From Thioclava sediminum (lineage in GTDB: Bacteria > Pseudomonadota > Alphaproteobacteria > Rhodobacterales > Rhodobacteraceae): a stretch of 64,000 nucleotides of DNA. Below the pieces are notes generated by a model. It had not been told where the DNA came from, searched no databases, and saw only the letters and a list, made by a program, of their open reading frames with translations. A program made the translations under genes and the position numbers. The DNA lies in NCBI RefSeq assembly GCF_002020355.1, contig NZ_MPZV01000001.1:1488001-1552000 (forward strand), read 5' to 3'. Of the stretch, positions 3,595-60,683 are shown in pieces (position 1 is the stretch's first letter; every line of letters begins with the position of its first letter).

Positions 3595-3642
3595 GGGGCG
3601 CTGCCTCCCCGTCGCCGCAGGGCGACAAATGAAAAGAGGAGA

Positions 3643-3700
3643 GGGGCGCTGCCCCTCGGCCTGACGGCCTCACCCCGGGATATTTGCACCAAGCCGAAAG
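3643..3700 (+). repeat. dispersed intergenic element, copy A
   Basis: Plus-oriented copy after slt: GGGGCGCTGCCCC at 3643-3655, a 17-base spacer, then CCCCGGGATATTT at 3673-3685 and a degenerate tail ending CCGAAAG. A second partial GC arm, GGGGCGCTGCC, lies just upstream at 3596-3606, so the head may be duplicated here. Confidence 0.85.
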
Positions 3701-3706
3701 AGGCGG

Positions 3707-4579
3707 TCACGCCTCTTGGGCCACCCGCGCGCGCCAGAGCGTGAAGAGCCCCGCGCTGACCACGACCCCCGCGCCGATCACCACGTTCCACTCCAGCGAC
3801 TCGCCGAAGACGACGACGCCCAGAGTCGAGGCGAAGACCAGTTGAAGATAGGCGAAGGGCTGGATCGCCGACGCTTCGGCCACCTCATAGGCCTTGATCA
3901 GCAGGAAATGCCCGGTCGCGGCGGTGAAGCACAGCACGACCATCCATGCCCAGTCGGACGCGATCATGTTCTCCCAGTGCCAGATGCCGACCGCCGTGAT
4001 CACCAGTGCCCCGATCACGCCGGTGTAGAAGAAGGACACCGAGGCCGGATCGACGCGGCCCACATAGCGCGTCATTAGCGAGTAGAGCGCGAACAGCGTC
4101 GCCGCCGCCAGCGGGATCAGCGCATAGGGAGAGAACACACCGAAGCCGGGCTTGAGGATGATGAGCACCCCGATGAAGCCCACACCGATCGCCGCCACGC
4201 GCCGCCAGCCGACCTTCTCGCCCAGCACCGGCCCGGAAAGCGCCGCGACCAACAGCGGGTAGCAAGCGAAGACCGCATGGGAATGGACGAGCCCGAGATA
4301 GACGAAGGCCTGCACCATCACGACCACCTCGGTGATCAAGATGAGCGAGCGGATCACCTGCGCCCAAGGCAGGCCCGAGCGCGTCGCCCGCTTGATCCCG
4401 CCGGGGCTGCGCGCTGCGATCACCAGCACGAAGGCAGCGAAGAACCAGAAGCGCACCATCAGCGCCATATAGACGTTATAGGTCTCGGCCAGATGGCGCG
4501 AGATGCCGTCCTGAAGCGCGAAAATGAAGGTCACCGCGACCATCAGCGCGATGCCGCGGCGGGTCGATTGTTCAACCAT
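3707..4579 (-). CDS. DMT-superfamily (EamA) inner-membrane transporter
   Basis: The 290-residue protein is almost wholly hydrophobic, with about ten predicted membrane segments arranged as two EamA repeats, the plan of drug/metabolite exporters. The N-terminal repeat opens with ALMVAVTFIFALQDGISRHLAE, shown here in part, and the second repeat contains LIPLAAATLFALYSLMTRYVG. Its start overlaps the 3' end of mnmD by 8 bases, so the two genes are translationally coupled in one operon. The substrate cannot be read from sequence; the family exports amino acids, nucleotides or small drugs. The 3' end lies 6 bases from repeat copy A. Confidence 0.85.
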   Translation of the reverse strand: MVEQSTRRGIALMVAVTFIFALQDGISRHLAETYNVYMALMVRFWFFAAFVLVIAARSPGGIKRATRSGLPWAQVIRSLILITEVVVMVQAFVYLGLVHSHAVFACYPLLVAALSGPVLGEKVGWRRVAAIGVGFIGVLIILKPGFGVFSPYALIPLAAATLFALYSLMTRYVGRVDPASVSFFYTGVIGALVITAVGIWHWENMIASDWAWMVVLCFTAATGHFLLIKAYEVAEASAIQPFAYLQLVFASTLGVVVFGESLEWNVVIGAGVVVSAGLFTLWRARVAQEA

Positions 4580-5246
4580 GTTTCACCCCGCGCGACATAT
4601 GGCGTTTGCGCCCGAAGCCCGGACTGCGGTTGACCTCGAAGCCCGCGGCCTCGAGGGCGCGGCGCACGAAACCTGCCGCCGTATAGGTCGCGAATGTGCC
4701 GCCCGGCGACGTATGGGCGCCGACCTCGGCCATCAGATCGTCGCCCCAAAGCTCGGGGTTTTTCGCGGGCGAGAACCCGTCGAGGAACCACGCATCGGCC
4801 ACGCTGTCCCAAGCGGGAAGCGCCGTGCGCGCATCACCCTCGATGATCTCCACCGCGACCGGACCGAGTTGAAACTGGCGCTGCCCTGCAGCCCAGGCTT
4901 CCAGATAAGGACCGGCCACGGGCGCGACCTCCGGAAATGCGTCCAGCGCCCGTGCGATCTCGTCTGCCTCCATCGGATAGGCCTCGAAGGAGGTGAAGCG
5001 GATCGGGCAGTCCTCGGGGCAGGCCAGCCGCAGCGCGAGCAGGTTCAGCCCCGTGCCGAAGCCCAGCTCGGCCACGTGAAAACCCGGACGCAGCTGCGCA
5101 GGCAAATCATTGCCCGCCAGAAACACATGCCGCGTCTCGTCCAGACCGCCCGCAAGGCTGAAATACGGATCGTCGAACCGCCGCGAGACCGGCACAAGGT
5201 CATCGCGCCAATCGAGATCGGCTTTGCTCTGGTCAGGGGCGTTCAT
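4572..5246 (-). CDS. mnmD: tRNA (5-methylaminomethyl-2-thiouridylate) methyltransferase, MnmD type
   Basis: The 224-residue protein matches the methyltransferase half of E. coli MnmC, the last step of mnm5(s2)U34 synthesis in tRNA wobble positions. The SAM-binding motif is ELGFGTGLN at residues 60-68. DAWFLDGFSPAKNP at 151-164 is the conserved MnmD/DUF752 active-site segment. I chose the ATG at 5246 (MNAPDQS) over an earlier in-frame ATG because the earlier residues do not resemble the family and would run into the divergent gene. The FAD-oxidoreductase half of an MnmC-like pair is encoded 49 bases away on the other strand. The downstream DMT gene overlaps it by 8 bases. Confidence 0.88.
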   Translation of the reverse strand: MNAPDQSKADLDWRDDLVPVSRRFDDPYFSLAGGLDETRHVFLAGNDLPAQLRPGFHVAELGFGTGLNLLALRLACPEDCPIRFTSFEAYPMEADEIARALDAFPEVAPVAGPYLEAWAAGQRQFQLGPVAVEIIEGDARTALPAWDSVADAWFLDGFSPAKNPELWGDDLMAEVGAHTSPGGTFATYTAAGFVRRALEAAGFEVNRSPGFGRKRHMSRGVKHG

Positions 5247-5295
5247 CGGGGATAGTCCACAGTCTCCGGCCCAGCCTTGAAGCAGGAGGCGCGAA

Positions 5296-6345
5296 ATGAC
5301 AAGCGGCAGACACGACATAACCGTGCGCGGCGGCGGCATCTTCGGCCTCGCGATCGCATATCAGGCAGCGAAGCGCGGCGCGAAGGTCCGGCTGATCGAG
5401 CGCAGCCGCATCGGCGCGGGCAGTTCGGGCGGCCATGTCGGCGCGCTCGCCCCGCATGTGCCGGAGAACTGGAACCCCAAGAAACAGTTCCAGTTCGAGA
5501 GCCTGCGCATGGCGGAAGCCTTCTGGGCCGACGTGCAGCGTATCGGTGGCGGCGATCCGGGCTATGCGCGTCTCGGGCGGCTCCAGCCGCTGGCGGATGA
5601 GGCGCAGATCGCGCGCGCCAGGGACCGTGCGGCAGGGGCGGCCGAGCTGTGGCAGGGCTTCGCCACATGGCGCGTGGCCGAGGCTGCGGAGTTCGGCACC
5701 TTCGCGCCTCCCTCGCCCACCGGGCTCGTGATCCATGACACGCTCACGGCGCGCGCCAATCCGCGCGCCGCCGGGGCTGCGCTGGTCGCGGCGCTCAAAG
5801 CGATGGGCGCGGAGATCGTGATCGACGAGGCCGAGGAGGTTGGTCCGGTCATCCACGCGACCGGCGCCGAAGGATTGGCCGAGCTGAACGCGGTGGTCGG
5901 CAAAACCGTCGGCACCGGCGTGAAGGGCCAATCGGCGCTCTTCCGATACGCGGCTGGCGACGTGCCCCAGCTCTTCGCGGAGAGCCTCCACATCATTCCC
6001 CATTCCGATGGAACGGTAGCGATCGGGTCGACCTCCGAGCGCGACTTCGACGCGCCCGACACGACCGATGCGCAGCTCGACGCGCTGATCGAGAAGGCCC
6101 GCGCGCTTTGCCCGCCCCTCGCCGAAGCCCCGGTGATCGACCGTTGGGCCGGGGTGCGCCCGCGCGCCAAGTCGCGCGCGCCGATGCTGGGCGTCTGGCC
6201 CGACCGTCCGGGGCATTTCATCGCCAATGGCGGGTTCAAGATCGGCTTCGGCATGGCGCCGAAAGTGGCTGAGGTGATGGTCGATCTAGTGCTGGAGGGG
6301 CGCGACACGATCCCCGAAGGCTTCCGCGTGACCGACAACCTGTAA
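5296..6345 (+). CDS. FAD-dependent oxidoreductase (DAO family), MnmC C-terminal-like
   Basis: The 349-residue protein has a Rossmann FAD-binding motif at the N-terminus (RGGGIFGLAIA, residues 11-21), an acidic residue at the end of beta2 (LIERSRIGAGSSGG) and a C-terminal FAD contact in HFIANGGFKIGFGMAP. This is the D-amino-acid-oxidase fold. In E. coli the same fold forms the C-terminal half of MnmC, which removes the carboxymethyl group from cmnm5U34 before the MnmD domain methylates it. The divergent mnmD neighbour makes that role plausible here, but glycine-oxidase-like activity on a free amino acid is a real alternative. The stop codon is followed at once by repeat copy B. Confidence 0.8.
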   Translation: MTSGRHDITVRGGGIFGLAIAYQAAKRGAKVRLIERSRIGAGSSGGHVGALAPHVPENWNPKKQFQFESLRMAEAFWADVQRIGGGDPGYARLGRLQPLADEAQIARARDRAAGAAELWQGFATWRVAEAAEFGTFAPPSPTGLVIHDTLTARANPRAAGAALVAALKAMGAEIVIDEAEEVGPVIHATGAEGLAELNAVVGKTVGTGVKGQSALFRYAAGDVPQLFAESLHIIPHSDGTVAIGSTSERDFDAPDTTDAQLDALIEKARALCPPLAEAPVIDRWAGVRPRAKSRAPMLGVWPDRPGHFIANGGFKIGFGMAPKVAEVMVDLVLEGRDTIPEGFRVTDNL

Positions 6346-6400
6346 GGGGCTCCGCCCCCGGCCTGCGGCCTCCCCCGGGATATTTCTCCCAAGAGGAAGA
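6346..6400 (+). repeat. dispersed intergenic element, copy B
   Basis: Begins at the base after the TAA: GGGGCTCCGCCCCC, a short GC spacer, CCCCCGGGATATTT, then CTCCCAAGAGGAAG. It faces copy C, which lies 122 bases downstream on the opposite strand. Confidence 0.88.
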
Positions 6401-6443
6401 AAAACGCCCGGCTCGAACCCGGTTGCGGGCGGCTGGCCGGGCG
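6401..6443 (-). terminator. intrinsic terminator reading leftward, after the hydroxylase gene
   Basis: Arms CGCCCGGC (6405-6412) and GCCGGGCG (6436-6443) form an 8-bp stem. On the minus strand the stem is followed by a T run (6404-6401), so it would stop transcripts coming from the hydroxylase gene. It lies between repeat copies B and C. Confidence 0.65.
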
Positions 6444-6522
6444 CTTCCCCTTGGGCGGCCATCGGCGTCCCCGCCTGTTCCGCGAGATCAGGGTCAGGCG
6501 ATTCTGGTTACGGAAGGTTTAA

Positions 6523-6581
6523 CTTCCTCTTGGCGGAAATATCCCGGGGGCGCGCGTCAGCGCGCGGGGGCAGCGCCCCCT
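6523..6581 (-). repeat. dispersed intergenic element, copy C
   Basis: Minus-oriented copy: CTTCCTCTTGG, AAATATCCCGGGG (6537-6549), spacer, GGGGGCAGCGCCCCCT (6566-6581). Its GC-rich head lies inside the 3' coding end of the hydroxylase gene, whose last residues GGGAAPAR and stop codon it supplies. Confidence 0.88.
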
Positions 6582-7300
6582 CCGACATGACCCGCCCGCG
6601 AGACCTCTGCCTCGGTGATCCCGAAGCGCGGGGCGAATTTCTCGCGTGCCGCGATCAGACGCGGGTCGTCGGGGCGCAGGCCGAGGGTCCGGATGAACTC
6701 GACGCGGCTTTGGGTCTTGAGCTGATCGCGCGAAATCGCGGTGCCCATCAGCCGGTCGATCACCTCGCCCCCTGCTGTGACATGAAACCATTTCGAGAAG
6801 TCGCGGAAATGGTGCTGGTTGTGCAGCGTCGAGACATGGCGCTCGATCGCGGTCTTCTTCACGGTGACATGGGCGGTGGTGTGGAACCATTCATAGGCGA
6901 GGAAGGTCGCAGCGCCGCCAAGCGGCACGACGGCCACGGCGATATCGAACGCATAAGGCACGCCGATCAGCGACAGCACCGCCCAAAGCAGCGCGGTATT
7001 GCCCACGAGCACCGGCACGATCACCGAGAGCGGCGCGAACAGAAGCGGCCAGCAGGTGGGGAATTCGTGGTGGCCGTAATGCACCCGGTAGAGCCAGTTG
7101 AAGGCCCATTGCCGCTTCGGCGGCGCCATGTGGAAGATGTAGCGGTGGAGCCCGTATTCGTTGAGCATCTGCGCCGGGATCCCCAGCAGCGCGACCGCCC
7201 AGAGCCACCAAGGCCCCTGCGCGATCCAATAGGCCGCCGCGGCGACGACTGCGATCATCACCCAGATCGACAGATGGGACAGCATCAGCCGCATCCGCAT
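6557..7300 (-). CDS. fatty acid hydroxylase / sterol desaturase family membrane protein
   Basis: This is a 247-residue integral membrane di-iron oxygenase. The histidine clusters that bind the diiron centre are all present: HRYIFH (52-57), HYGHH (74-78), HTTAH (140-144), and H155 with HNQHH (160-164). Hydrophobic segments lie near residues 10-45 and 85-135. The family includes sterol desaturases, fatty acid 2-hydroxylases and carotenoid hydroxylases, and the substrate cannot be chosen from sequence. The last eight residues (GGGAAPAR) are translated from the dispersed repeat, so the native C-terminus has probably been remodelled by repeat insertion. Confidence 0.85.
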   Translation of the reverse strand: MRMRLMLSHLSIWVMIAVVAAAAYWIAQGPWWLWAVALLGIPAQMLNEYGLHRYIFHMAPPKRQWAFNWLYRVHYGHHEFPTCWPLLFAPLSVIVPVLVGNTALLWAVLSLIGVPYAFDIAVAVVPLGGAATFLAYEWFHTTAHVTVKKTAIERHVSTLHNQHHFRDFSKWFHVTAGGEVIDRLMGTAISRDQLKTQSRVEFIRTLGLRPDDPRLIAAREKFAPRFGITEAEVSRAGHVGGGAAPAR

Positions 7301-7401
7301 CGCGAAAGTCTCCCGAAATCTCCTCCGGAGATCAGCCTGCCACGGGTTACGCGCGCGTCAAAGCGTTTCGCAACGTCAGGGCCAGTCAGTCGTTCTCGTC
7401 G

Positions 7402-7821
7402 TCAGTCGTTCTCGTGCGGGATGTTCTTTTCCCGATCGACCGCCAGTTCGCCCTTCGAGGTATCGGCGTCGGCTGTGTGCACCGCCCAGTCGCCCTCGCC
7501 TGCGGGCTTTGGCAGCTTCTCGGCCGGCCAGTCGCGGAAGATATTGGCCTTCGAGATGAAATGCGCGGTGATCGGGGCTGTCAGGAAGATGAAGATGGTG
7601 ACCATCAGCTCGTGCAGGGTCAGGTGGCCCTGCTTCACCGCGAACCAGACCATCGAGGCGATCAGGATCGCGCCCACGCCCAGCGTTGCAGCCTTGGTCG
7701 GCGCGTGCAGGCGGGTCATCGGGTCGGGCAGCTTGACCAGCCCGAAGCTGCCGACGAGGCCGAAGATGCCGCCGATCACGAGCAGCGCGGAAATCAGGAT
7801 ATCCCAGAACAGTTCCATCAC
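7402..7821 (-). CDS. mnhG: monovalent cation/H+ antiporter subunit G
   Basis: Last gene of the Mnh/Pha-type operon. The 139-residue protein has three membrane segments and the MnhG/PhaG signature near GLVKLPDPMTRLHAPTKAATLG, given here only in part. A hydrophilic tail of about 45 residues follows the last segment. Subunit G is part of the multisubunit secondary antiporter that exchanges Na+ or K+ for H+ across the inner membrane and supports pH and salt homeostasis. The gene starts 4 bases after the mnhF stop. No terminator is obvious in the 100 bases before the hydroxylase gene. Confidence 0.92.
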   Translation of the reverse strand: MMELFWDILISALLVIGGIFGLVGSFGLVKLPDPMTRLHAPTKAATLGVGAILIASMVWFAVKQGHLTLHELMVTIFIFLTAPITAHFISKANIFRDWPAEKLPKPAGEGDWAVHTADADTSKGELAVDREKNIPHEND

Positions 7822-7825
7822 GCCC

Positions 7826-8095
7826 TCACTCGATAATGTCGCCGCGCAGGATGAACTTGGCGAAGGAGACCGTCGCCACGAAGCCCGTCATTGCGTAAAG
7901 GATCGACGCCTCGAAGAAGAGCGCCGTGCCCTCCCAGATGCCGAACAGCACGATCATCGCGATCGCGTTGATCGCCATCGTGTCGAGCGCGAGAACCCGG
8001 TCGGTCACGCCCGGCGCCTTAACGACCCGGTAGAGGTTGAACAGCAGCGCCAGCGAATAGCAGGCGATGGCGAAGATCAGGGCATAGGTGATCAT
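7826..8095 (-). CDS. mnhF: monovalent cation/H+ antiporter subunit F
   Basis: This is an 89-residue, three-segment membrane protein (MITYALIFAIACYSLALLFN and onward, with the family motif TDRVLALDTMAINAIA near residues 31-45). I set the start at 8095 because the residues before it in the same frame are not MnhF-like and because this ATG overlaps the mnhE stop as ATGA. It belongs to the same antiporter complex as its neighbours. Confidence 0.92.
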   Translation of the reverse strand: MITYALIFAIACYSLALLFNLYRVVKAPGVTDRVLALDTMAINAIAMIVLFGIWEGTALFFEASILYAMTGFVATVSFAKFILRGDIIE

Positions 8096-8583
8096 TCGAA
8101 AATCTCCTTCAGGCGGGCCTCGTAGCGGGACTTGATCTCGTCGCGCACCTCGTCGGCATCGGGCGCATGCAGCGCGTGGACCAGCAGCGAGTGACCGTCG
8201 GCGGCCAGCTCCGCCGTCAGCGTCCCGGGCGTCATCGTGATCGTGCCCGCCAGCACCGTCACCGCCTCGGGCGTGACGATGTCGAGCGGCACCGTGACCC
8301 AGGCCGGGTGCAGCTTGGAGTTGGGCATGAAGAGCACGATCTTCGCCACGGTGATATTCGCGACGATGATATCCCAGATCACGATGGAGATGTACTCGAT
8401 GATCTTCAGCGGCTTCGCGAAACGCGGGCGCGCGGGCCAGTAGGGCGCGGTGATCCACGGGATCACGAGCCCGACGAGGATCGCGAAGACCAGCGAATTG
8501 AGCGTGTAGCTATTGGCCAGCATCAACCAGACCATCACCAGCGTGACGGTCAGGTAGGGGTGGGGAAGGATCTTGCGGATCAT
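8092..8583 (-). CDS. mnhE: monovalent cation/H+ antiporter subunit E
   Basis: The 163-residue protein begins MIRKILPHPYLTVTLVMVWLML, written here in part, with two to three N-terminal membrane helices. A cytoplasmic domain follows with SKLHPAWVTVPLD and the conserved stretch TITMTPGTLTAEL that marks MnhE/PhaE. An upstream in-frame ATG would add 42 residues of Pro/Thr-rich shadow sequence and was rejected. It sits 13 bases after mnhD and overlaps mnhF by 4 bases. Confidence 0.92.
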   Translation of the reverse strand: MIRKILPHPYLTVTLVMVWLMLANSYTLNSLVFAILVGLVIPWITAPYWPARPRFAKPLKIIEYISIVIWDIIVANITVAKIVLFMPNSKLHPAWVTVPLDIVTPEAVTVLAGTITMTPGTLTAELAADGHSLLVHALHAPDADEVRDEIKSRYEARLKEIFE

Positions 8584-8596
8584 CTCTTTGCTCCCC

Positions 8597-10315: not shown

Positions 10316-10650
10316 TGGCCGTCCTCCTCTTCCTCGAGGTCGATGCGGTCATTGCCCGCCTCGATGAAGGCGCCAAGCGCGAGCATCACCACGACCGCGG
10401 TCATCCCGAAGGAGATCACGATCGCGGTCAGGACCAGCGCCTGCGGGATCGGGTCTGTATAGGAGGTCACGCCGTCGCGCAGGATCGGCGGCTGGTTGAT
10501 CACCAGACGGCCCGTGGCGAACAGGAACACGTTCACCGCGTAGGACAGCAGCGACATGCCCACCACCACGGGGAAGGTGCGCAGACGCAGGATCATGTAG
10601 ATGCCGGCGGCGGTCAGCACGCCGATGGCCGATGCAACGAGCACTTCCAT
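10312..10650 (-). CDS. mnhC: monovalent cation/H+ antiporter subunit C (NuoK-like)
   Basis: The 112-residue protein has three membrane helices and is homologous to NuoK: AAGIYMILRLRTFPVVVG, then NVFLFATGRL, then DPIPQALVLTAIVISFGMTA. Length and helix layout match MnhC/PhaC. Its ATG shares one base with the mnhA stop (TGATG), and its stop overlaps the mnhD start by 4 bases, so the operon is tightly coupled. Confidence 0.93.
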   Translation of the reverse strand: MEVLVASAIGVLTAAGIYMILRLRTFPVVVGMSLLSYAVNVFLFATGRLVINQPPILRDGVTSYTDPIPQALVLTAIVISFGMTAVVVMLALGAFIEAGNDRIDLEEEEDGQ

Positions 10651-20624: not shown

Positions 20625-20697
20625 CCGGAGGACGAATCCCTCCGGTCCCGGCATGAGGTCGGGATCGCCACCAGTCAGCGCGTTGCGCCCACTGGTG
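20625..20697 (+). promoter_or_regulatory. structured 5' leader of ffh: three consecutive hairpins
   Basis: Three perfect inverted repeats follow each other: CCGGAGG/CCTCCGG (20625-20631, 20639-20645), TCCCG/CGGGA (20646-20650, 20660-20664) and CACCAGT/ACTGGTG (20669-20675, 20691-20697). They end about 30 bases before the strong AGGAGGG ribosome-binding site of ffh. None is followed by a T run, so they look like leader structure rather than terminators. No known riboswitch pattern is recognised. Confidence 0.45.
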
Positions 20698-20739
20698 CGC
20701 TTGTCGTTTGTCCCGGCCCCAATCACAGGAGGGTGGCCC

Positions 20740-28790: not shown

Positions 28791-30500
28791 ATGGCGCGCC
28801 ATCTCATTACCTCGGCCATTCCCTATATCAACGGCATCAAGCACCTCGGCAATCTCGTGGGCTCGCAGCTGCCGGCTGATCTCTTCGCCCGCTACCAGCG
28901 CGCGCGGGGCAACGAGGTGATGTTCATCTGCGCCACCGACGAGCACGGCACCCCCGCCGAACTGGCCGCCGCGAAAGCGGGCAAGCCGGTCGCCGAGTAT
29001 TGCGCGGAGATGCATGAGGTGCAGGCGAAGATCGCGGAAGGCTTCCGGCTCAGCTTCGATCACTTCGGGCGCTCGTCCAGCCCGCAGAACCATCGCCTGA
29101 CGCAGCATTTCGCGGTGAAGCTGGCCGAGGCGGGGCTGATCCGCGAAGTCTCGGAAACCCAGATGTATTCCAAGGCCGACGGGCGCTTCCTGCCCGACCG
29201 CTATATCGAGGGCACCTGCCCCAATTGCGGTTTCGAGAGCGCGCGCGGCGATCAATGCGACAACTGCACCAAGCAGCTCGACCCGGTGGACCTGATCAAC
29301 CCGCATTCCACGATTTCCGGCTCGACCGATCTGGAGATGCGCGGGACCAAGCACCTGTTCCTGCGCCAGTCGGCTATGAAGGATCGGCTGGATGCGTGGA
29401 TCGACAGCAAGTCCGACTGGCCGGTGCTGACCACCTCGATCGCGAAGAAATGGCTCCATGACGGCGACGGGCTGCAGGACCGCGGCATCACCCGCGACCT
29501 CAGCTGGGGCGTGCCCGCGCAATTCGAGGGTGCGCCGTGGTCGGGCATGGAAGGCAAGGTCTTCTACGTCTGGTTCGACGCGCCGATCGAATATATCGCC
29601 GCGACCGAGGAATGGACCGAGAAGACCGGCGGCGACTGGGAGCGCTGGTGGCGCACCGACAAGGGCGCCGACGACGTCACCTACACCCAGTTCATGGGCA
29701 AGGATAACGTGCCCTTCCACACGCTCTCGTTCCCCGCGACGATCCTCGGCTCGGGCGAGCCGTGGAAGCTCGTGGATTACATCAAGTCGTTCAACTACCT
29801 GAACTACGATGGCGGCCAGTTCTCGACCTCGCGCGGTCGCGGCGTCTTCATGGATCAGGCGCTGGAGCTTCTGCCCGCCGATTACTGGCGCTGGTGGCTT
29901 CTGTCCCACGCGCCGGAAAGCGCGGATGCCGAATTCACCTGGGAGAACTTCCAGGTCTCGGCGAACAAGGACCTCGCCGATGTGCTGGGCAACTTCGTCA
30001 GCCGGATCACCAAGTTCACCCGCTCGAAATTCGGCGAGGCGATCCCGGAAGGCGGCAGCTGGGGCGCGCAGGAAGCGGCCCTGATCGAGGATCTGACCAC
30101 CCGCATCCGCGCCTACGAGACGCATATGGAAGAGAAGGATATCCGCAAGGCGGCGATGGAGCTTCGCGGAATCTGGGTCGCGGGCAACGAATACCTGCAG
30201 GCATCGGCACCGTGGTCTGTGTTCAAGACCGATCCCGATCAGGCAGCGGCCATCGCACGGCTCGCGCTCAACCTGATCCCGATCTATGCGGTGCTCTCGG
30301 CCCCCTTCATTCCCGACGCGGCGAAGATCATGCTCGAGGCGATGGGCGACGAGGATCGCGGCTGGCCGGGCGATGTGAAAACGGCGCTCGAAGCGCTGCC
30401 CGCAGGCCACGCCTTCACCACGCCCGAGGTGCTCTTCCGCAAGATCACGGATGACGAGCGCGAAGAGTGGCAGGAACGCTTCGCAGGCACCCGCGACTGA
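28791..30500 (+). CDS. metG: methionyl-tRNA synthetase
   Basis: The 569-residue class I synthetase has the HIGH-type motif [16 protein letters not shown] (residues 10-25), a zinc knuckle with CPNCGF and CDNC near 143-160, and the WFDAPIEYI segment. The KMSKS position reads QFSTS in [14 protein letters not shown] remember the same form from other Rhodobacterales MetRS, so it is probably clade-typical rather than damage. The anticodon-binding domain follows ([18 protein letters not shown]). There is no C-terminal dimerisation (EMAP-like) domain. GAGGG lies before the ATG. Repeat copy D begins 10 bases after the stop. Confidence 0.96.
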
Positions 30501-30509
30501 GACGCATCA

Positions 30510-30570
30510 GGGGCTCTGCCCCTCTTCGCTTTCGCGAATTCACCCCGGGATATTTGACCAAGAGCGAAGA
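30510..30570 (+). repeat. dispersed intergenic element, copy D
   Basis: GGGGCTCTGCCCC (30510-30522), spacer, ACCCCGGGATATTT, then GACCAAGAGCGAAG. It follows metG and faces copy E. Confidence 0.9.
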
Positions 30571-30587
30571 CAGCCCCCGCGCGTTTC

Positions 30588-30643
30588 TTCGCTCTTTCGA
30601 AATATCCCGGGGGGCTCCCACAGGGAGCGGGGGCAGAGCCCCC
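30588..30643 (-). repeat. dispersed intergenic element, copy E
   Basis: CTTCGCTCTTTCG, AAATATCCCGGGG, spacer, GGGGGCAGAGCCCCC. The GC head abuts the holin stop codon (TAG then GGGGGC on the minus strand). Together with copy D it forms a large inverted repeat at a convergent gene end. Confidence 0.9.
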
Positions 30644-47238: not shown

Positions 47239-48519
47239 ATGGACCTCGCCACTCGCCTGAAATCCGCCATCGACGCGCGCCGCGATGATCTGATCGCGCT
47301 GACGCAGGCACTGATACGCATTCCGACGCTGAACCCGCCGGGGCGCAATTACCGCGAGGTCTGCGATTTTCTCGCCGCCTATCTCTCCGAACGCGGCTTC
47401 ACGACCGAACTGATCCGCGCCCATGGCGCGCCCGGCGACAGCGAGACCTATCCGCGCTGGAACCTCGTCGCCCGCATCGAGGGCACGCGCCCCGGCGACT
47501 GCGTGCATTTCAACTCGCATCACGACGTGGTCGAGATCGGCCATGGCTGGACCCGCGATCCGTTCGGGGCCGAGATCGACGGAGACCGCATCTACGGGCG
47601 CGGCGCCTGCGACATGAAGGGCGGGCTCGCGGCCTCAGTGATCGCGGCGGAGGCGTTCCTCGACACCTGCCCCGATTTCGCTGGCAGCATCGAGATTTCC
47701 GCCACCGCCGACGAGGAATCGGGCGGCTATGGCGGCGTGGCCTATCTGGCCGAGCAGGGCCGCTTCGATCCGACCCGCGTGCAGCATGTCATCATCCCCG
47801 AGCCGCTGCACAAGGACCAGATCTGCCTCGGTCATCGCGGCGTCTGGTGGGCCGAGGTAGAGACCCATGGCCGTATCGCGCATGGCTCGATGCCGTTTCT
47901 CGGCGACAGCGCGATCCGCCATATGAGCGCCGTTCTCAGCGAGATGGAGGAGACGCTCTACCCGCTCCTTCTGGGCAAGCAGACCGAGATGCCCGTGATC
48001 CCCGAAGGCGCGCGGGCCTCGACGCTGAACGTCAATTCGATCCATGGCGGCGCGCCGGAAGAAGGGGCCGATTACACAGGCCTGCCCACGCCCTGCGTCG
48101 CCGATCGCTGCCGCATCGTGATCGACCGGCGCTTTCTGATCGAGGAAGACCTCGCCGAGGTGAAGACCGAGATCATCGACCTGATGGAGCGCGTGAAAGC
48201 CCAGCGTCCGAGCTTCCGCTATGAAATCCGCGACCTGTTCGAGGTGCAGCCCACGATGACCGACAAGGGCGCGCCGATCGTGCGCTCCACCGCCGCGGCG
48301 ATCGAGGCGGTGCTGGGCCGGGAGGCGGCTTATGTCGTCTCGCCCGGCACCTATGACCAGAAACATATCGACCGGATCGGGCGGCTGCAGAATTGCATCG
48401 CCTACGGTCCGGGGCTACTGGAGCTCGCCCATCAACCCGACGAATGGGTCGGCATCGAGGATATGGCCGACAGCGCGAAGGTCATGGCGCTGGTTCTGGC
48501 GGAACTGCTGGGGTCTTAG
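47239..48519 (+). CDS. M20 family metallo-deacylase (ArgE/DapE-like)
   Basis: The 426-residue zinc hydrolase has metal ligands in HFNSHHDVVEIG, GRGACDMKGG and ADEESGG (the catalytic Glu), plus IPEPLHKDQICLGHRG before the dimerisation domain. The family covers acetylornithine deacetylase and succinyl-diaminopimelate desuccinylase, and the substrate cannot be chosen here. No arg or dap gene adjoins it. The 5' extension of the frame upstream of 47239 overlaps the divergent small gene and was rejected. The stop is fused to repeat copy F. Confidence 0.85.
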   Translation: MDLATRLKSAIDARRDDLIALTQALIRIPTLNPPGRNYREVCDFLAAYLSERGFTTELIRAHGAPGDSETYPRWNLVARIEGTRPGDCVHFNSHHDVVEIGHGWTRDPFGAEIDGDRIYGRGACDMKGGLAASVIAAEAFLDTCPDFAGSIEISATADEESGGYGGVAYLAEQGRFDPTRVQHVIIPEPLHKDQICLGHRGVWWAEVETHGRIAHGSMPFLGDSAIRHMSAVLSEMEETLYPLLLGKQTEMPVIPEGARASTLNVNSIHGGAPEEGADYTGLPTPCVADRCRIVIDRRFLIEEDLAEVKTEIIDLMERVKAQRPSFRYEIRDLFEVQPTMTDKGAPIVRSTAAAIEAVLGREAAYVVSPGTYDQKHIDRIGRLQNCIAYGPGLLELAHQPDEWVGIEDMADSAKVMALVLAELLGS

Positions 48520-48579
48520 GGGCGCTGCCCCTCAGCGCGTACCGCGCCTCACCCCGGGATATTTGGACCAAGGGGAAGG
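48519..48579 (+). repeat. dispersed intergenic element, copy F
   Basis: The head GGGGCGCTGCCCC begins with the last base of the TAG stop codon of the M20 gene. A spacer, CACCCCGGGATATTT and GGACCAAGGGGAAG follow. Confidence 0.9.
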
Positions 48580-48590: not shown

Positions 48591-48650
48591 CTTCTTCGCT
48601 CTTGTCGAAATATCCCGGGGGGCGACGCAGTCGCGGGGGCAGCGCCCCCT
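48591..48650 (-). repeat. dispersed intergenic element, copy G
   Basis: CTTCTTCGCTCTTGTCG, AAATATCCCGGGG, spacer, GGGGGCAGCGCCCCCT. It faces copy F and lies 8 bases after the panC stop. Confidence 0.9.
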
Positions 48651-53088: not shown

Positions 53089-53097
53089 GGGTTTCGG

Positions 53098-53213
53098 CTT
53101 GGCGGAAATATCCCGGGGGTGAGGCGGGATCAGCGGCCTTCCAGTGGAAGGACGCCCCGACGAACGCCCGAAGCGCAAGCGAAGGGCCGGCAGACCGGGG
53201 GGCAGAGCCCCCT
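53098..53213 (-). repeat. dispersed intergenic element, copy H (expanded)
   Basis: Minus-oriented between two plus genes: CTTGGCGGAAATATCCCGGGG, given as the core AAATATCCCGGGG at 53105-53117, and GGGGGGCAGAGCCCCCT at 53197-53213. The spacer between them is about 80 bases against 10-25 elsewhere and holds extra GC hairpins, so the copy is expanded or interrupted. Confidence 0.8.
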
Positions 53214-54003: not shown

Positions 54004-54020
54004 ACGCAGGGCGCTGAATT

Positions 54021-54066
54021 GGGGGCGTTGCCCCCAAACCCCCAGGATATTTGGACCAAGAGGAAG
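54021..54066 (+). repeat. dispersed intergenic element, copy I
   Basis: GGGGGCGTTGCCCCC, short spacer, CCCAGGATATTT, GGACCAAGAGGAAG. The final AGGAAG is directly followed by the ATG of the next gene and would act as its ribosome-binding site. The GGG to AGG change in the core marks some decay. Confidence 0.88.
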
Positions 54067-55077: not shown

Positions 55078-55110
55078 CCGGACGACCCATCCAGCCCTTC
55101 GGAGGACATC

Positions 55111-56589
55111 ATGCTCGACGACAAGACCGACCTCAAATCCATCCTAAAGGATCCCTCGCTTCTGGCGACAAAGGCCTTCGTCGCGGGCGAATGGGTCGAT
55201 GCCGATGACGGCACCACCTTCGACGTGACCAACCCCGCGCGGGGCGACGTGATCTGCACCGTGCCCGATCTGGGCCGCGCCGAGACCGCCCGCGCCATCG
55301 CTGCCGCCGAGGAGGCGATGAAGGACTGGGCCGCGCGCACCGGCAAGGAACGCGCGCAGATCATGCGCAAATGGTACGACCTGATGATGGAGAACCAGGA
55401 CGATCTGGGCGCGATCCTTACCGCCGAGATGGGCAAGCCGCTCGCCGAGGCGAGGGGCGAGATCGCCTATGGCGCAGGCTTCATCGAGTGGTTCGGCGAA
55501 GAGGCCAAGCGGGTCTATGGCGAGACGATCCCGGGCCATCAGCGCGACAAGCGGATCACAGTAATCAAGCAGCCGATCGGGGTCGCAGCCTCGATCACGC
55601 CGTGGAACTTCCCCAACGCGATGATCGCGCGCAAGGCGGGCCCGGCGCTCGCGGTGGGCTGCGGTTTCGTCTGCCGCCCGGCCTCCGAGACGCCCCTCTC
55701 GGCGCTGGCGATGGCGGTGCTGGGCGAACGCGCGGGCCTGCCCAAAGGCATCCTCTCGGTCATCACCTCCGCGAAAGCCTCCGATATCGGCAAGGAGTTC
55801 TGCGAGAACCACACCGTGCGCAAGCTGACCTTCACCGGCTCGACCGAGGTGGGCCGTATCCTGCTGCGTCAGGCGGCGGATCAGGTGATGAAATGCTCGA
55901 TGGAACTGGGCGGCAACGCGCCCTTCATCGTGTTCGACGACGCCGATCTCGACGCCGCGGTCGAAGGCGCGATGGCGTCGAAATTCCGCAATAACGGTCA
56001 GACCTGCGTCTGCGCCAACCGCATCTACGTCCAGTCCGGGGTCTATGACGCCTTTGCCGAGAAGCTGGCCAAGGCCGTCAACGCCCTCAAGGTGGGCGAC
56101 GGCCTCAAGGAAGGCGTCGAGGCTGGCCCGCTGATCAACGAGGACGCGGTCAAGAAGGTGCAGGAGCATATTCAGGACGTGCTCGATCATGGCGGCTCGA
56201 TCGTCACCGGAGGCGAGCGGCACGAGATGGGCGGCACCTTCTTCCAGCCGACCGTGCTGACCGGGGTCACGCAGGAGGCCAAGGTCTCGCATGAGGAGAC
56301 CTTCGGCCCCGTCGCCCCGCTCTTCAAGTTCGAGACCGAGCAGGAGGCGATCGCCAAGGCCAATGACACAATCTTCGGCCTTGCGAGCTATTTCTACGCC
56401 CGCGACGTGGGCCGCATCACCCGCGTTCAGGAAGGTCTGGAATACGGGATCGTCGGCGTGAACACCGGCCTGATCTCAACCGAGGTCGCGCCCTTCGGCG
56501 GCGTAAAGCAATCGGGTCTGGGCCGCGAAGGGTCGCATCACGGCGTCGAGGATTATCTCGAGATGAAATATATCTGTCTCGCGGTCTGA
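55111..56589 (+). CDS. gabD: succinate-semialdehyde dehydrogenase
   Basis: The 492-residue enzyme oxidises succinic semialdehyde to succinate, linking GABA to the TCA cycle. The catalytic Glu is in SMELGGNAPFIVFDDAD and the Cys in FRNNGQTCVCANR; FGGVKQSGLGREGSHHG is the SSADH-type C-terminus. The coenzyme-binding Lys of ALDHs reads Arg here (FVCRPASETPLSAL), a change I recall from other alphaproteobacterial GabD. No gabT is adjacent. It ends in a good hairpin terminator. Confidence 0.92.
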   Translation: MLDDKTDLKSILKDPSLLATKAFVAGEWVDADDGTTFDVTNPARGDVICTVPDLGRAETARAIAAAEEAMKDWAARTGKERAQIMRKWYDLMMENQDDLGAILTAEMGKPLAEARGEIAYGAGFIEWFGEEAKRVYGETIPGHQRDKRITVIKQPIGVAASITPWNFPNAMIARKAGPALAVGCGFVCRPASETPLSALAMAVLGERAGLPKGILSVITSAKASDIGKEFCENHTVRKLTFTGSTEVGRILLRQAADQVMKCSMELGGNAPFIVFDDADLDAAVEGAMASKFRNNGQTCVCANRIYVQSGVYDAFAEKLAKAVNALKVGDGLKEGVEAGPLINEDAVKKVQEHIQDVLDHGGSIVTGGERHEMGGTFFQPTVLTGVTQEAKVSHEETFGPVAPLFKFETEQEAIAKANDTIFGLASYFYARDVGRITRVQEGLEYGIVGVNTGLISTEVAPFGGVKQSGLGREGSHHGVEDYLEMKYICLAV

Positions 56590-56616
56590 GACCGAGCCGA
56601 GGCGAAAGGACAGTTC

Positions 56617-56648
56617 AGAGGGCGGGCCGCGTGTCCGCCCTCTCTTTC
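56617..56648 (+). terminator. intrinsic terminator after gabD
   Basis: AGAGGGCGG (56617-56625) and CCGCCCTCT (56635-56643) form a 9-bp stem, followed by a short pyrimidine run. Confidence 0.7.
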
Positions 56649-56681
56649 ATTAATACTCACCGCTGCTTATCTTGTCCGTGA

Positions 56682-58106
56682 ATGAGAATGAGGGGCCGGG
56701 CTTTGGGCATTTCCGACATTGCGGACGGGATCACGCGCGGGATCGAGGGCATGGGCCATTCGGTCTCGGAGGCGCTGTTCGAACCGGTGATCCGGCTCGG
56801 CGTGACGGGTCTGTCGCGCGCGGGCAAGACCGTGTTCATCACCTCGCTAGTCGCGAACCTGCTGGATCGCGGGCGGATGCCTGCGCTGGGATCGGCGTCG
56901 GATATCACCGCCGCCTATCTGCAGCCGCAGCCCGACGACACCGTGCCGCGCTTCGACTTTGAGAGCCACCTTGCCGCGCTGACCGGCCCTTCGCCGCATT
57001 GGCCCGAGGGCACGCGCGCCGTCTCGGAGCTGCGGCTGTCCTTCCGCATCCAGCCGCGCGGGATGCTGGGCGCGGTGCGGGGTCCGCGCGTCGTGCATCT
57101 CGATATCGTGGATTACCCCGGCGAGTGGCTGCTCGACCTCGGGCTTATGGACAAAAGCTATGCCGAGTGGTCGGCAGAGGCGCTGGCGCGTCTGCCGAAC
57201 CGTCCGCAAGGCGCGGAATATCTGACGCAATCCGAGGCGGCGGACGGCACCGCGGAATTCACCGAGCCGCAAGCCAAGGCGCTGGCGGCGGGCTTCACCC
57301 GATACCTCACCGAGGCGCGCGATGCGGGGTTCTCTGACTGCACGCCGGGGCGCTTCCTGCTGCCCGGCGAGATGGCCGGATCGCCCGCCCTGACCTTCGC
57401 GCCGCTGCCCGCGGGCGACGCCCCGCGCGGCTCGCTTCGGCGCGAGATGGAGCGCCGCTACGACGCCTACAAACGCGAGGTCGTGCGCCCCTTCTTCCGC
57501 GATCATTTCGCCAAGATCGACCGACAGGTGGTGCTGGTCGACGTATTGGGCGCGATCCATTCGGGGCCCGCCGCGCTCGACGATCTGCGTCAGGCGATGG
57601 CCGATATTCTGGCGGCCTTCCGTCCGGGCCGCGCAAGCTGGCTGACCTCGCTGATCGGCGGCAAGCGGGTCGAGAAAATCCTCTTCGCCGCGACCAAGGC
57701 GGATCACCTGCACCATACGCAACACGCCCGCCTGACCTCGATCACCGGCGCACTGCTGCGCGAGGCCAAGGACCGTGCCGATTTCGCGGGCGCGAAGACT
57801 CTCGCGCTGTCGATCGCGGCGCTGCGCAGCACCACGGAAGAAACCCTCTCGCATGACGGGGCGGAATTGCAGGCCGTGCGCGGGCGGCTGGAGAACGGCA
57901 AGTCGGTCGCGCTCTATCCCGGCGAATTGCCCGCCGACCCAGCGCAGCTTCTCTCGCCCGCGGCGCAAGGGGCCTCCGCATGGCTCGACGAGGATTATTC
58001 GATCATGAACTTCGCCCCGGCCCCGGTGATCTTGCGACCCGGCGAAGGCCCGCCGCATATCCGGCTCGACCGCGCGGCCGATTTCCTGATCGGGGACAAG
58101 CTATGA
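56682..58106 (+). CDS. YcjX-family P-loop ATPase
   Basis: The 474-residue protein has the Walker A motif LSRAGKTVF near 44-52, IVDYPGEWLLD (Walker B-like) near 145, and FAATKADHLHHTQHARL. This is the YcjX family, DUF463, a predicted nucleotide-binding protein of the envelope-stress (phage-shock) neighbourhood in enterobacteria. It is paired with the YcjF homologue as there. The start is not firm: 56682 has no ribosome-binding site. Confidence 0.87.
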   Translation: MRMRGRALGISDIADGITRGIEGMGHSVSEALFEPVIRLGVTGLSRAGKTVFITSLVANLLDRGRMPALGSASDITAAYLQPQPDDTVPRFDFESHLAALTGPSPHWPEGTRAVSELRLSFRIQPRGMLGAVRGPRVVHLDIVDYPGEWLLDLGLMDKSYAEWSAEALARLPNRPQGAEYLTQSEAADGTAEFTEPQAKALAAGFTRYLTEARDAGFSDCTPGRFLLPGEMAGSPALTFAPLPAGDAPRGSLRREMERRYDAYKREVVRPFFRDHFAKIDRQVVLVDVLGAIHSGPAALDDLRQAMADILAAFRPGRASWLTSLIGGKRVEKILFAATKADHLHHTQHARLTSITGALLREAKDRADFAGAKTLALSIAALRSTTEETLSHDGAELQAVRGRLENGKSVALYPGELPADPAQLLSPAAQGASAWLDEDYSIMNFAPAPVILRPGEGPPHIRLDRAADFLIGDKL

Positions 58107-59101
58107 AAAAACCGGTGATGATCGAGATCGAGGACGCGCCCTCGCCCGCCGAGGCCGCGCCGATCGAGGATATGCCGAGCGCGACCGAGGAGCGGCTGGA
58201 AGGCCGCGCCATGCAGATCGCGACCCGGCTGGGGGCGCGCCGCACCTCGCCCATCGTACGATTCTTCTGGCGCGCCAGCGTGGCGTTGATGGGCTTCCTA
58301 ATCTCCGTCGCGCTCTGGCGCTTCATCGACGGGCTGTTCGCCACCCATCCGATCCTCGGCTGGATCGGAACCGCGCTGGTCGCGGCCTTCGCGCTTGGCG
58401 CGCTGCTGATCACCGGACGAGAAATCGCCGCGTTTTCAAGGCTGGCCCGCCTCGACAAGGTCCATAAGGAAGTGTCGGAAGCGCTGAGCGAAGATGACCT
58501 AAGCCGCGCGCGGAAAGTCACGGCGCATGTCTCGGGCCTCTATGCCGCGCAGCCCGAGATGGACTGGGCGCGCAAGCGGCTGGCCGAGCAAACGGGCGAG
58601 GTGCTCGACACCGACACGCTGATGGGACTGGCAGAAACTGAACTGATGGGCCCGCTGGACGCCGCCGCCCGGCTCGAGATCGAAGCTGCCGCGCGCACCG
58701 TCGCCACGGTGACCGCCGTCGTGCCGCTGGCGCTGGCCGACGTCTTCACCGCGCTCACCGCAAACCTCCGGATGATCCGGCGCATCGCGGAAATCTATGG
58801 CGGGCGCTCGGGCACGCTCGGCTCGATCCGGCTGGCGCGCACGGTGATGACCCATCTCGTCGCGACCGGTGCGGTGGCGGCGGGCGACGATCTGATCGAG
58901 ACGGTCACCGGCGGTCATCTGGTCTCGAAACTCTCGCGCCGCTTCGGCGAAGGCGTGATCAACGGGGCACTCACCGCCCGGGTCGGGATCGCCGCGCTGG
59001 AGGTCTGCCGCCCGATGCCCTTCCGGAAGCTGCAAAAGCCGCGCGTGACCAATCTGATCGGCCGGTCTCTGACGGGCGTGTTCGGGAAGAAAGAGGACTG
59101 A
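58103..59101 (+). CDS. YcjF-family (DUF697) membrane protein
   Basis: The 332-residue protein has two membrane helices (about 67-85 and 93-113) after an acidic N-terminus, and a DUF697 C-terminal half (AARTVATVTAVVPLALADVF). It overlaps the YcjX gene as ATGA, and the two are translated together. The family partners YcjX at the inner membrane; its action is unknown. Confidence 0.87.
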   Translation: MKKPVMIEIEDAPSPAEAAPIEDMPSATEERLEGRAMQIATRLGARRTSPIVRFFWRASVALMGFLISVALWRFIDGLFATHPILGWIGTALVAAFALGALLITGREIAAFSRLARLDKVHKEVSEALSEDDLSRARKVTAHVSGLYAAQPEMDWARKRLAEQTGEVLDTDTLMGLAETELMGPLDAAARLEIEAAARTVATVTAVVPLALADVFTALTANLRMIRRIAEIYGGRSGTLGSIRLARTVMTHLVATGAVAAGDDLIETVTGGHLVSKLSRRFGEGVINGALTARVGIAALEVCRPMPFRKLQKPRVTNLIGRSLTGVFGKKED

Positions 59102-59105
59102 GCCT

Positions 59106-59161
59106 CTTCCTCTTGGCAGAAGTATCCCGGCGGGCTCCGAAGGAGCGGGGGCAGAGCCCCC
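59106..59161 (-). repeat. dispersed intergenic element, copy J
   Basis: TTCCTCTTGG, AAGTATCCCGGCGG (degenerate core), spacer with GGGCTCC/GGAGC, GGGGGCAGAGCCCCCT. It follows the globin gene on the minus strand. Confidence 0.85.
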
Positions 59162-59165
59162 TCGC

Positions 59166-59573
59166 CTATTTCAGCTTCGGAATCCCGCCCGGAAGCGTCT
59201 CACGCTCGACCACGCCCTGCCGCAGGCTCATGCCGATGCGATGGGCGAGCGCCGACCAACCCGCCGCCTGTTCGGGCGACAGTTCCTCGATCAGCACCTT
59301 GTCGAATTCCGCGAGCCAGGTTGAAAACATTCCCGGGCGCACATTGCCTGCCGCGCGGTGGACCTGCATGGGCGAGCCATCATAGCCCGGTTTGCGCAGG
59401 ATCGCGTTCTTCCAGAACCGCGCGACCTTGTCCTCATGGGTGGGCCAGTCGGTGACATGCACCGCAAAGACCGGACCGAGCATCGCGTGGCTGCGCACGC
59501 GCTCGTAGAAGCGCGCCACGACGCGGTCGATCTCCGCCTCGGTGATCTCGAAACGTGCCAAGGGGTCAGCCAT
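59166..59573 (-). CDS. truncated hemoglobin, group III type
   Basis: The 135-residue truncated globin has [17 protein letters not shown] for helix B with Phe/Tyr at B9-B10, [12 protein letters not shown] for helix E-like, and the proximal His72 in PMQVHRAAG. The lack of the Gly-Gly pairs of group I and the length fit group III, found in alphaproteobacteria. It could bind O2 or NO. Its start lies inside the ruvB 3' end (8-base overlap), so it is translated with ruvB. Confidence 0.85.
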
Positions 59574-60606
59574 CGCCAAAGAGGTCCGTCTGCGGGGTGG
59601 CGGGTTTCGGTGCCTCGAGCCCCAGATGCCGCCACGCCCGCGCGCCCAGCATCCGACCACGCGGGGTGCGGCTGATCAGGCCCTGTTGCAACAGGTAGGG
59701 TTCGATGACTTCTTCGATCGCGTCGCGACTTTCTGACAGCGCGGCCGAGAGCGTCTCCACCCCCACCGGGCCGCCGCCATAATGATCGGCCATCAGCATC
59801 ATGTAGCGCCGGTCCGCCCCGTCGAGACCGAGATTGTCGACACCGAGCCGCGTCAGCGCGCGGTCCGCGATCTCGCGGGTCAGCCGCCCCTCGCCCTCGA
59901 CCAGCGCGAAATCGACGACTCGGCGCAGCAGGCGACCTGCGATGCGCGGGGTGCCACGCGCGCGCTTGGCGATCTCGCGGGTGCCCGCGGGGTCGGACGG
60001 GATACCCAAGAGCCGCGACCCGCGTGTCACGATCAGGTCCAGCTCGTCCTCGGTGTAGAATTGCAACCGCGTCGGGATGCCGAAGCGGTCGCGCAGGGGC
60101 GTCGTCAGCAGGCCGAGCCGCGTGGTCGCGCCGACCAGAGTGAAGGGCTGCAACTCGATCCGCACAGTGCGCGCGGCAGGCCCCTCGCCGATCACCAGAT
60201 CGAGCTCGAAATCCTCCATCGCGGGATAGAGCACTTCCTCCACCGCCGGGTTCATCCGGTGAATCTCGTCGATGAAGAGCACGTCGCGCGCTTCGAGATT
60301 GGTCAGGATCGCGGCCAGATCGCCCGCCTTGGCGAGCACCGGTCCGGAGGTCATCTTGAAGTTCACACCGAGCTCGCGCGCCATGATCTGCGCCAGCGTC
60401 GTCTTGCCCAGACCGGGCGGGCCGTGGAACAGCGTGTGATCCATCGCCTGGCTGCGCATCTTCGCGCTTTCGATGAAGACGCGCAGGTTGGCGCGGGCTT
60501 CGGCTTGGCCCGTAAATTCCTCCAGCGCCTGTGGGCGCAGGGCGCGGTCGGCGTCTTCGGGCAGGCGGTCGGGCCGCAGGGTGGGATCAGGTTCGCTCAT
60601 CGTCAT
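59566..60606 (-). CDS. ruvB: Holliday junction branch-migration ATPase RuvB
   Basis: The 346-residue AAA+ motor has the Walker A motif [12 protein letters not shown], Walker [10 protein letters not shown], sensor [19 protein letters not shown] and a C-terminal winged helix with [12 protein letters not shown]. With RuvA it drives branch migration. It lies 80 bases after ruvA, with repeat copy K in the gap. ATG at 60606 or 60600 are both possible. Confidence 0.97.
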
Positions 60607-60639
60607 TTACTGTCGCGCCTTTGGCGGAGGGGAGCAAGC

Positions 60640-60683
60640 GGGGCGCTGCCCCGCACCCCGGGATATTTATCCCAAAAGGAAGA
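60640..60683 (+). repeat. dispersed intergenic element, copy K (compact)
   Basis: GGGGCGCTGCCCC (60640-60652), almost no spacer, CACCCCGGGATATTT, ATCCCAAAAGGAAG. It lies between ruvA and ruvB but is oriented opposite to both genes, one of two copies that break the usual orientation rule. Confidence 0.85.

Follow-up and report, generated by a model that had tools for sequence, protein, structure and literature searches.

The REP, BIME and REPIN families, which go together with RAYT transposases, are short palindromic extragenic copies at gene ends that occur as inverted pairs and composite units, and DNA uptake sequences can form terminator-like inverted pairs at gene ends as well. Uptake sequences reach hundreds to thousands of copies with intragenic patterns, according to the part of PMC2346458 consulted. 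In the Rhodobacter puf mRNA an RNase E site stands with a stabilising hairpin, and the R. sphaeroides RNase E sites are AU-rich (PMC6238624, consulted in part). The element analysed here has the ~100 short palindromic extragenic copies, the gene-end place, the inverted pairs and the composite units of REP/BIME/REPIN, but differs from them by the long, fixed core-and-tail sequence that accompanies its hairpins. With the classical intrinsic terminator it shares GC hairpins at gene ends, a preference for convergent genes and a sense bias; unlike it, the element is without a U tract and carries GGRRTATTT and a conserved purine-rich tail instead. No name or paper for it was found among titles and the beginnings of abstracts, and neither Rhodobacter nor Paracoccus nor Roseobacter came up in a term search of the available text of PMC12306157 and PMC3733652.

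The window, i.e., the whole 64-kb stretch of DNA that was analysed, was described in a sequence-only reading as carrying eleven copies of one intergenic element, and all of them are present at matching coordinates (Table 1). The core query CCCCGGGATATTT with at most two mismatches has 11 matches in the window (nine exact, one with one mismatch and one with two) against 1.15 expected, and 0 of 100 shuffles get to 11. The element has a constant order of parts: a constant hairpin (H1), a second hairpin (H2), the core, a 3-base gap and a purine-rich tail, which is CCAAGNNGAAG besides other forms. What the earlier description took for a spacer is H2 in most copies, with I and K lacking it and H having a long variant in that place. 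In the inverted pairs B-C, D-E and F-G the tails face each other. Copy H, which runs antisense to both neighbours, has 78 bases between its core and its GC hairpin. The tail of copy I immediately precedes the next predicted start codon. Folding of four copies gave H1 every time and H2 only sometimes.

Table 1. Copies of the element and the long inner module in the window (relatives are given by genome label).
Feature	Positions	Strand	Core	Other parts and remarks
Copy A	3643..3699	+	3673-3685	H1, H2, tail; same site in G152, G160, G162, G157
Copy B	6346..6399	+	6373-6385	H1, H2, tail; inverted pair with C; same site in four relatives
Long inner module of the B-C pair	6400..6522			One of 4 genome-wide; short form in G157
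Copy C	6523..6580	-	6537-6549	Same site in four relatives
Copy D	30510..30569	+	30543-30555	Inverted pair with E; degenerate in G157
Copy E	30586..30643	-	30600-30612	H1 shares one base with the neighbour's stop codon
Copy F	48519..48578	+	48552-48564	Inverted pair with G; also in G150
Copy G	48594..48649	-	48608-48620	H2 shows a paired change between species
Copy H	53092..53212	-	53106-53118	Tail; long module replacing the short H2; H1-like hairpin 53197-53212
Copy I	54021..54066	+	54040-54052 (one mismatch)	H1, tail; without H2
Copy J	59106..59161	-	59120-59132 (degenerate, 2 mismatches)	
Copy K	60640..60682	+	60656-60668	H1, tail; without H2; antisense to both neighbours

The core is neither at the level of chance nor equally common inside genes: in the 4.13-Mb genome its exact form occurs 112 times (57 and 55 by strand, ~27 per Mb), against 0 for the reversed control. 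A 28-position profile scanned over a 340-kb grid of the same genome gave 15 matches, with 0 within predicted genes and 0 for the reversed control, and when the window, the grid and a 220-kb sample of a stretch free of exact cores are taken together, there are 30 matches, 0 in genes and 0-1 in the control. The description of the copies as lying only between genes nearly holds; in larger sets, 3/95 copies of this genome and 6/112 copies of the named genomes are inside predicted genes. Across the Rhodobacteraceae, CCCGGGATATTT was found in 94 of the 149 genera and a second core form, CCCGGAGTATTT, in 79 of the 149; A/U-rich [AG]TATTT is retained in both forms, beside hairpins, and inside a single genome (G128) the form of the tail goes with that of the core. 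Inverted pairs where gene ends converge, and forms differing between relatives, would also suit a DNA uptake sequence, but the element has far fewer copies, at the above density of exact cores, and is extragenic, with none of the 15 grid matches in genes, which makes such an identity highly improbable. A phage origin was rejected, with the 27-base motif on just one viral contig of the collection. With the Rfam 15 covariance models, only ffh was found in the window at the gathering score, located away from the element, and the three matches at copies F-G were all sub-threshold and chance-like.

The copies are stable in place. For 39 of the 42 exact cores of contig C1 there is a collinear, strand-matched partner in the sister species G152, with 3 cores unmatched on either side, where the script considers position and strand only and omits the exact core at C1:289; under an earlier, tighter limit on indels the match was 22/42. 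All 8 window sites hold copies in four relatives, and orthologous differences amount to 30/572 in the core, 314/2364 in other intergenic sequence and 39/132 in the 3-base gap. At site H the core is absent in G149 and G153 (both loss and gain are possible) and degenerate in G150; site I has the GGAGTATTT form in G149 and G153, the long module is present at site J in G152, G160 and G162, and copy K is retained, always antisense, in seven relatives (G152, G160, G162, G157, G158, G156 and G150).

These results bear on the REP-like mobile palindrome proposed in the sequence-only reading. The number of copies, their position outside genes and the inverted pairs agree with the proposal, and the many extragenic copies with inverted doublets that characterise REP/REPIN are indeed found, but the spread to new sites is not, given the collinearity with G152. 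The Y1 (RAYT) transposase domain PF01797 has 0 matches in the own genome and is absent from 13/16 genomes of the genus, with a match in 9/41 genomes overall and in 5/14 control genomes; RAYT-driven mobility was rejected because Y1_Tnp is absent from the own genome. Among 95 copies viewed by eye, there is no constant tag of the GTAG or CGTC type (names as in the title of PMC3733652) before H1. A now quiet REP/BIME-like family, which a transposase since lost or not yet known once spread and which survives at gene ends where it does least harm, could account for the ~100 extragenic copies, the inverted pairs, the few copies at divergent junctions, the subfamilies with coupled core and tail, the contents swapped at fixed sites and the four copies of the long inner module. 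We nevertheless consider it doubtful, as it has to be reconciled with the missing Y1_Tnp, the collinear copies, one core sequence kept over many genera, and H2 strings that differ from copy to copy and do not look like fresh copies. Since ~100 gene-end copies stay put in relatives, the element is better regarded as a resident gene-end signal than as jumping DNA.

Of the H2 strings in the own genome, 76/77 are distinct, and their pairing is almost purely Watson-Crick. Stems of at least 5 bp occur in 73% of cases, against 7.8% in shuffled sequence, and stems of at least 4 bp in 134/141 copies having H1 and enough room; mispairs are rare (G.T 1/705, A.C 4/720) compared with hairpins before T runs (57/995 and 22/781, respectively). 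An RNA hairpin under selection would be expected to show paired changes and to tolerate G.U; paired changes are present in 5/6 of the H2 pairs compared, but G.T is nearly missing. Unpaired changes between close species are also visible by eye. Such perfect palindromes might be the product of palindrome-correcting mutation (template switching), without selection on a structure, so that only core and tail would matter; the scarcity of mispairs and the conservation of I and K, which have no H2, agree with this. However, H2 is fixed in place in most copies that have H1 and room for it, and does show unpaired changes, and we regard this origin as quite improbable.

The element prefers convergent junctions and is scarce at divergent ones, being present at 6/46 convergent, 4/204 tandem and 1/50 divergent junctions of the grid. 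The single copies in tandem gaps (n = 89) are 57 in sense and 32 in antisense orientation, the latter unlike a classical terminator. The sense bias, the places near the next start in tandem gaps, and the A/U-rich [AG]TATTT by hairpins in both core forms, like the AU-rich R. sphaeroides sites, would suit a site of mRNA processing or stability, where the hairpins would protect the upstream mRNA and RNase E would cleave in the A/U-rich core that follows them. The puf-type site is similar in its A/U-rich stretch beside hairpins, as far as the part of PMC6238624 consulted describes it, but the element has a long fixed sequence, and its orientation is biased and not constant. An RNase E site appears unlikely to us, considering the antisense copies, including copy K in seven relatives, the near absence of G.T pairs in H2, and the tail, which it leaves unexplained.

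The other earlier proposal, a conserved mRNA-end signal, suits the data better than the REP/RAYT one, and its support is partial: gene-end place, persistence and an apparent partial replacement of classical terminators agree with it, while an orientation that is biased but not constant, H2 without G.T pairs and a grid without replacement do not. In wide convergent gaps of the own genome, classical terminators are found in 14/36 gaps with the element versus 22/31 without (p 0.014). In the grid sample only, they are found in 3/6 element gaps versus 10/15 others, where no replacement is visible, and with the window and the core-free stretch added in 5/11 versus 17/26 (p 0.30); tandem gaps with and without the element show no difference. 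A strict scan of convergent gene ends was mixed, with terminators at 24/146 element-free ends and at 4/62, 6/65 and 6/36 ends with sense, antisense and both, respectively, but its rules miss two of four window terminators visible by eye, and therefore they were loosened. The loosened scan (22/84 versus 34/60; own plus genus 16/51 versus 26/37) is not relied on, because orthologous gaps were counted repeatedly and some degenerate copies scored as element-free. An either/or rule seen by eye in nine wide convergent window gaps is weakened, as hairpins resembling terminators also turn up at A and B-C in the scripted scan. A separate classical terminator adjoins several copies. The hairpins of the element itself do not stand directly before a U tract; GGGATATTT, three free bases and the purine-rich tail follow instead.

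Our preferred explanation, held tentatively and with somewhat less than even confidence, is that the element is a resident of gene ends in Rhodobacteraceae and takes part in forming or insulating the ends of transcripts, mostly where genes converge. The sequences show its architecture, its distribution over the family, its location at gene ends, its constancy of site and the coupling of core and tail; the role in ending or insulating transcripts and a factor that reads the site are inferred. Core and tail (CCCCGGRRTATTT, ~3 bases, purine-rich tail) are probably recognised by a trans-acting factor, or else by an RNA polymerase that pauses there; with the hairpins just upstream, a polymerase halted at the core would have a hairpin behind it. 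The hairpins could also stop 3'-5' exonucleases on either strand, and the inverted pairs would serve both converging genes. A strong terminator would be poorly placed in 7/27 of the own sense tandem copies, where the next start is at most 40 bases from the core. A bolder and still more doubtful form of the resident gene-end element is a lineage-specific, factor-dependent system, in which some Rhodobacteraceae protein, existing as paralogues or alleles that differ in specificity, would read core and tail as DNA or RNA and, together with the freely changing, locus-perfect hairpins, end or insulate transcription both ways; the coupled dialects in one genome would then be the trace of co-evolution with such factors.

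If transcript ends do form here, a family that includes Paracoccus, relatives of Rhodobacter and the Roseobacter group gains a gene-end signal, one that terminator predictors miss due to the lack of a U tract. At ~100 sites a constant sequence stands together with a hairpin that varies freely yet is almost always perfect, which makes mutation a way to ask at which level, DNA or RNA, such palindromes are maintained and what recognises core and tail. The window is itself rich in copies, with 9 exact cores compared to a genome mean of ~1.7 per 64 kb.

The gene-end unit shared by copies A-K of the window is a real element that is spread through the family Rhodobacteraceae and is stable in its places within the genus. 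Its core, CCCCGGGATATTT, matched the window 11 times when at most two mismatches were allowed (expectation 1.15; no shuffle in 100 reached 11), which bears out the eleven copies of the sequence-only reading, and their coordinates were correct on re-check. The excess also holds in the whole 4.13-Mb genome of T. sediminum (G000), where the exact core occurs 112 times (57 and 55 by strand) and the reversed pattern not once.

Sampling of this genome gave 95 distinct copies with the exact core, in which the order of parts is a constant GC hairpin (H1), a second hairpin (H2), the core, three nearly free bases and a purine-rich tail with the consensus CCAAGNNGAAG. H1 is GGGGC-NCT-GCCCC, frequently with one or more extra pairs, and a fixed pattern found it in 194 of 207 copies (the 95 and 112 from named genomes), 13 being without it. 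H2 was examined in 141 copies, since the other 53 H1-bearing copies have too little room for it, and its stem reached at least 5 base pairs in 73% of copies versus 7.8% of shuffled segments; 76 of 77 H2 strings of the own genome are distinct, the arms often being shared and the loop differing. Paired changes on both sides were seen at five of six H2 pairs in 13 copies selected for length and not for pairing, two of which pair in a different register, with a covariation score of 0.224 versus a shuffled mean of 0.094 and 0 of 500 shuffles as high; H1 is invariant in this set and thus uninformative on pairing. Non-Watson-Crick pairs are rare in H2 (G.T 1/705, A.C 4/720) compared with hairpins before T runs at the same loci, a control that includes chance hairpins (G.T 57/995, A.C 22/781; p = 8e-13 for G.T). 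This purity may reflect a constraint at the DNA level, strong selection for stability or palindrome-correcting mutation, any of which would account for it.

Further modules accompany some copies (see the table). A small CGTCGCCGCAGGGCGACAA-like hairpin, perhaps a second repeated module, precedes H1 in several; a long module with GGGGCGTCCTTCCACTGGAAGGC replaces the short H2 in others; and each of the four AGGCGGGGACGCCGATG modules is flanked by inverted cores with some 160-168 bases from one to the other. A second 5' form, a hairpin with GCCTCCGGCGGGGATATTT, occurs in genome G128 (L207-L226) solely in inverted pairs with an H1-H2 copy (8 pairs), and it recurs in three own-genome pairs (L030, L041, L057) and at L247 and L257.

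Coordinates of modules, stretches and other features (G152, sister species; G160, a compared genome; C, contigs; L, sampled loci)
Feature	Position	Remarks
CGTCGCCGCAGGGCGACAA-like hairpin	window 3610-3628	also L019, L031, L035, L042, L043, L052, L060; by eye
Long module with GGGGCGTCCTTCCACTGGAAGGC	window 53119-53196	also L036, L047, L060, L062, L069
Long inner module (AGGCGGGGACGCCGATG)	window 6400-6522; G000 C1:775054, C2:501757, C2:859339	four in genome
Pair D-E	window 30500-30643	compared together with neighbours
Stretch without exact core	G000 C1:800874-1329043	about 0.5 Mb
Stretch without exact core	G152 C1:588842-1162658	about 0.5 Mb
Stretch without exact core	G160 C1:582659-1088948	about 0.5 Mb
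ffh sRNA	window 20654-20705	RF01793, 60.9 bits
parS-like sites TGTTTCACGTGAAACA	G000 C4:130885 and 132793	near contig end in G152 and G160 too

Placement was judged against genes predicted by a simple codon-usage script in place of an annotation. A regular grid covering 340 kb of contigs C2 and C3 gave 15 profile hits, none of them intragenic (reversed control, 0 hits), and the element occupied 6/46 convergent, 4/204 tandem and 1/50 divergent junctions. When the grid was pooled with the window (copy-rich by choice) and 220 kb of exact-core-free stretch (copy-poor by choice), the counts were 11/84, 9/402 and 2/85 (convergent versus divergent, p = 0.0096; versus tandem, p = 0.0001). The earlier claim that copies lie only between genes or at gene ends held for these 30 pooled hits, none of them intragenic, but was too strict for the element-centred samples: the 95 own copies comprise 40 convergent, 27 tandem sense, 21 tandem antisense, 3 divergent, 3 inside genes and 1 edge, and the 112 named-genome copies 40, 34, 20, 8, 6 and 4, respectively. 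Single copies in tandem gaps favour the sense strand (57 versus 32, p = 0.011; own genome 19:12, named genomes 30:13, G128, G010 and G044 together 8:7), and of the 27 tandem sense copies in the own genome, 7 have the following start within 40 bases of their core.

Among 149 Rhodobacteraceae genomes, each of another genus, CCCGGGATATTT is found in 94 (55 without), and by hand counts 57 have at least 5 matches and the reversed control 7 matches in total; CCCGGAGTATTT is found in 79, with one match in the own genome, 105 in G110 and 47 in G128. The core with the CAANNNGAA tail occurs in only one of 190 genomes of a class sample, the own genome (187 are from other families and two in the family are without a match), which shows the family limit for this form alone, one of several tail forms. 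A wider scan gave at least 103 matching stretches, and the 80 matches listed all come from Rhodobacteraceae, broadly defined, apart from two contigs of one MAG labelled only Proteobacteria. Exact cores number 21-112 in 15 of 16 genomes of the host genus; G161 has none.

Core and tail vary together. In sampled stretches of G128, 17 of the 18 GGGATATTT cores are followed by AAAGA and none by AATRATGAA, and GGAGTATTT carries AATRATGAA in 8 of 10, AAAGA in one and another tail in one (p = 1.4e-5). The site of copy I pairs AGGATATTT with CCAAGAGGAAG in the own genome and holds another form in G149 (GGAGTATTG, one base from the second core form, with CTAGATGAAA) and G153 (GGAGTATTT with CTAGATGAAA); further tail forms occur in G010 and G044. 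Because two separate parts change jointly, this suggests that core and tail are read together, or that subfamilies spread by being copied as whole units in the past.

All eight window sites (11 copies) are occupied at the same place in G152, G160, G162 and G157, some copies being degenerate. For eight more distant genomes the comparison covers the part at about 46-62 kb, where flanks were often not found. Among the sites with both flanks identified, G150 carries F-G, I, J and K, and G156 and G158 carry J and K. Site H lacks a core in G149 and G153, and in G150 its core is degenerate. Of the 42 exact cores on contig C1, 39 are matched in G152 by a collinear core on the corresponding strand (3 unmatched on each side). 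This argues against the earlier suggestion of a REP-like mobile palindrome, and a RAYT-driven REP is rejected. Within fixed places the contents turn over: D-E has different tails and loop in three relatives, the B-C inner module is long in four genomes and short in G157, and site J carries short hairpins in the own genome but, in G152, G160 and G162, the long module. Differences to four relatives, with gaps counted and degenerate copy J included, were 30/572 in the core, 113/1320 in hairpins, 77/484 in the tail and 39/132 in the three-base gap, versus 197/3104 in coding and 314/2364 in other intergenic sequence. Compared with G152, G160 and G162, the left flank of D-E is 96-98% and the right 88-89% identical, as if a recombination joint lay inside the element. 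Three species, T. sediminum and those of G152 and G160, each have a long stretch without exact core; a 220-kb sample of it yields 4 profile hits, and 7 of the sample's 27 convergent junctions have gaps of 55-500 bases.

Forming or insulating transcript ends, perhaps with a putative factor, is the likeliest work of the element, a tentative choice on our part. By eye, four of the nine window convergent gaps above 60 bases hold a hairpin with a T run and the other five the element, although a scripted search also sees terminator-like hairpins at A and B-C. Gene-end placement favours the earlier reading as a conserved mRNA-end signal, as do classical terminators in convergent gaps of 55-500 bases, which are fewer with the element (14/36) than without it (22/31; p = 0.014, all fetched own-genome stretches). 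Against it, the less selected grid alone does not show replacement (3/6 versus 10/15), the three samples pooled give 5/11 versus 17/26 (p = 0.30), and terminator frequency in tandem gaps does not differ between those with and those without the element. Together, terminator and placement data support a gene-end role moderately and termination as such weakly. Alternatively, an A/U-rich core behind hairpins would suit an RNase E site, in line with the AU-rich RNase E sites of R. sphaeroides described in PMC6238624.

An ffh sRNA in the window and two parS-like sites on contig C4 were also seen.
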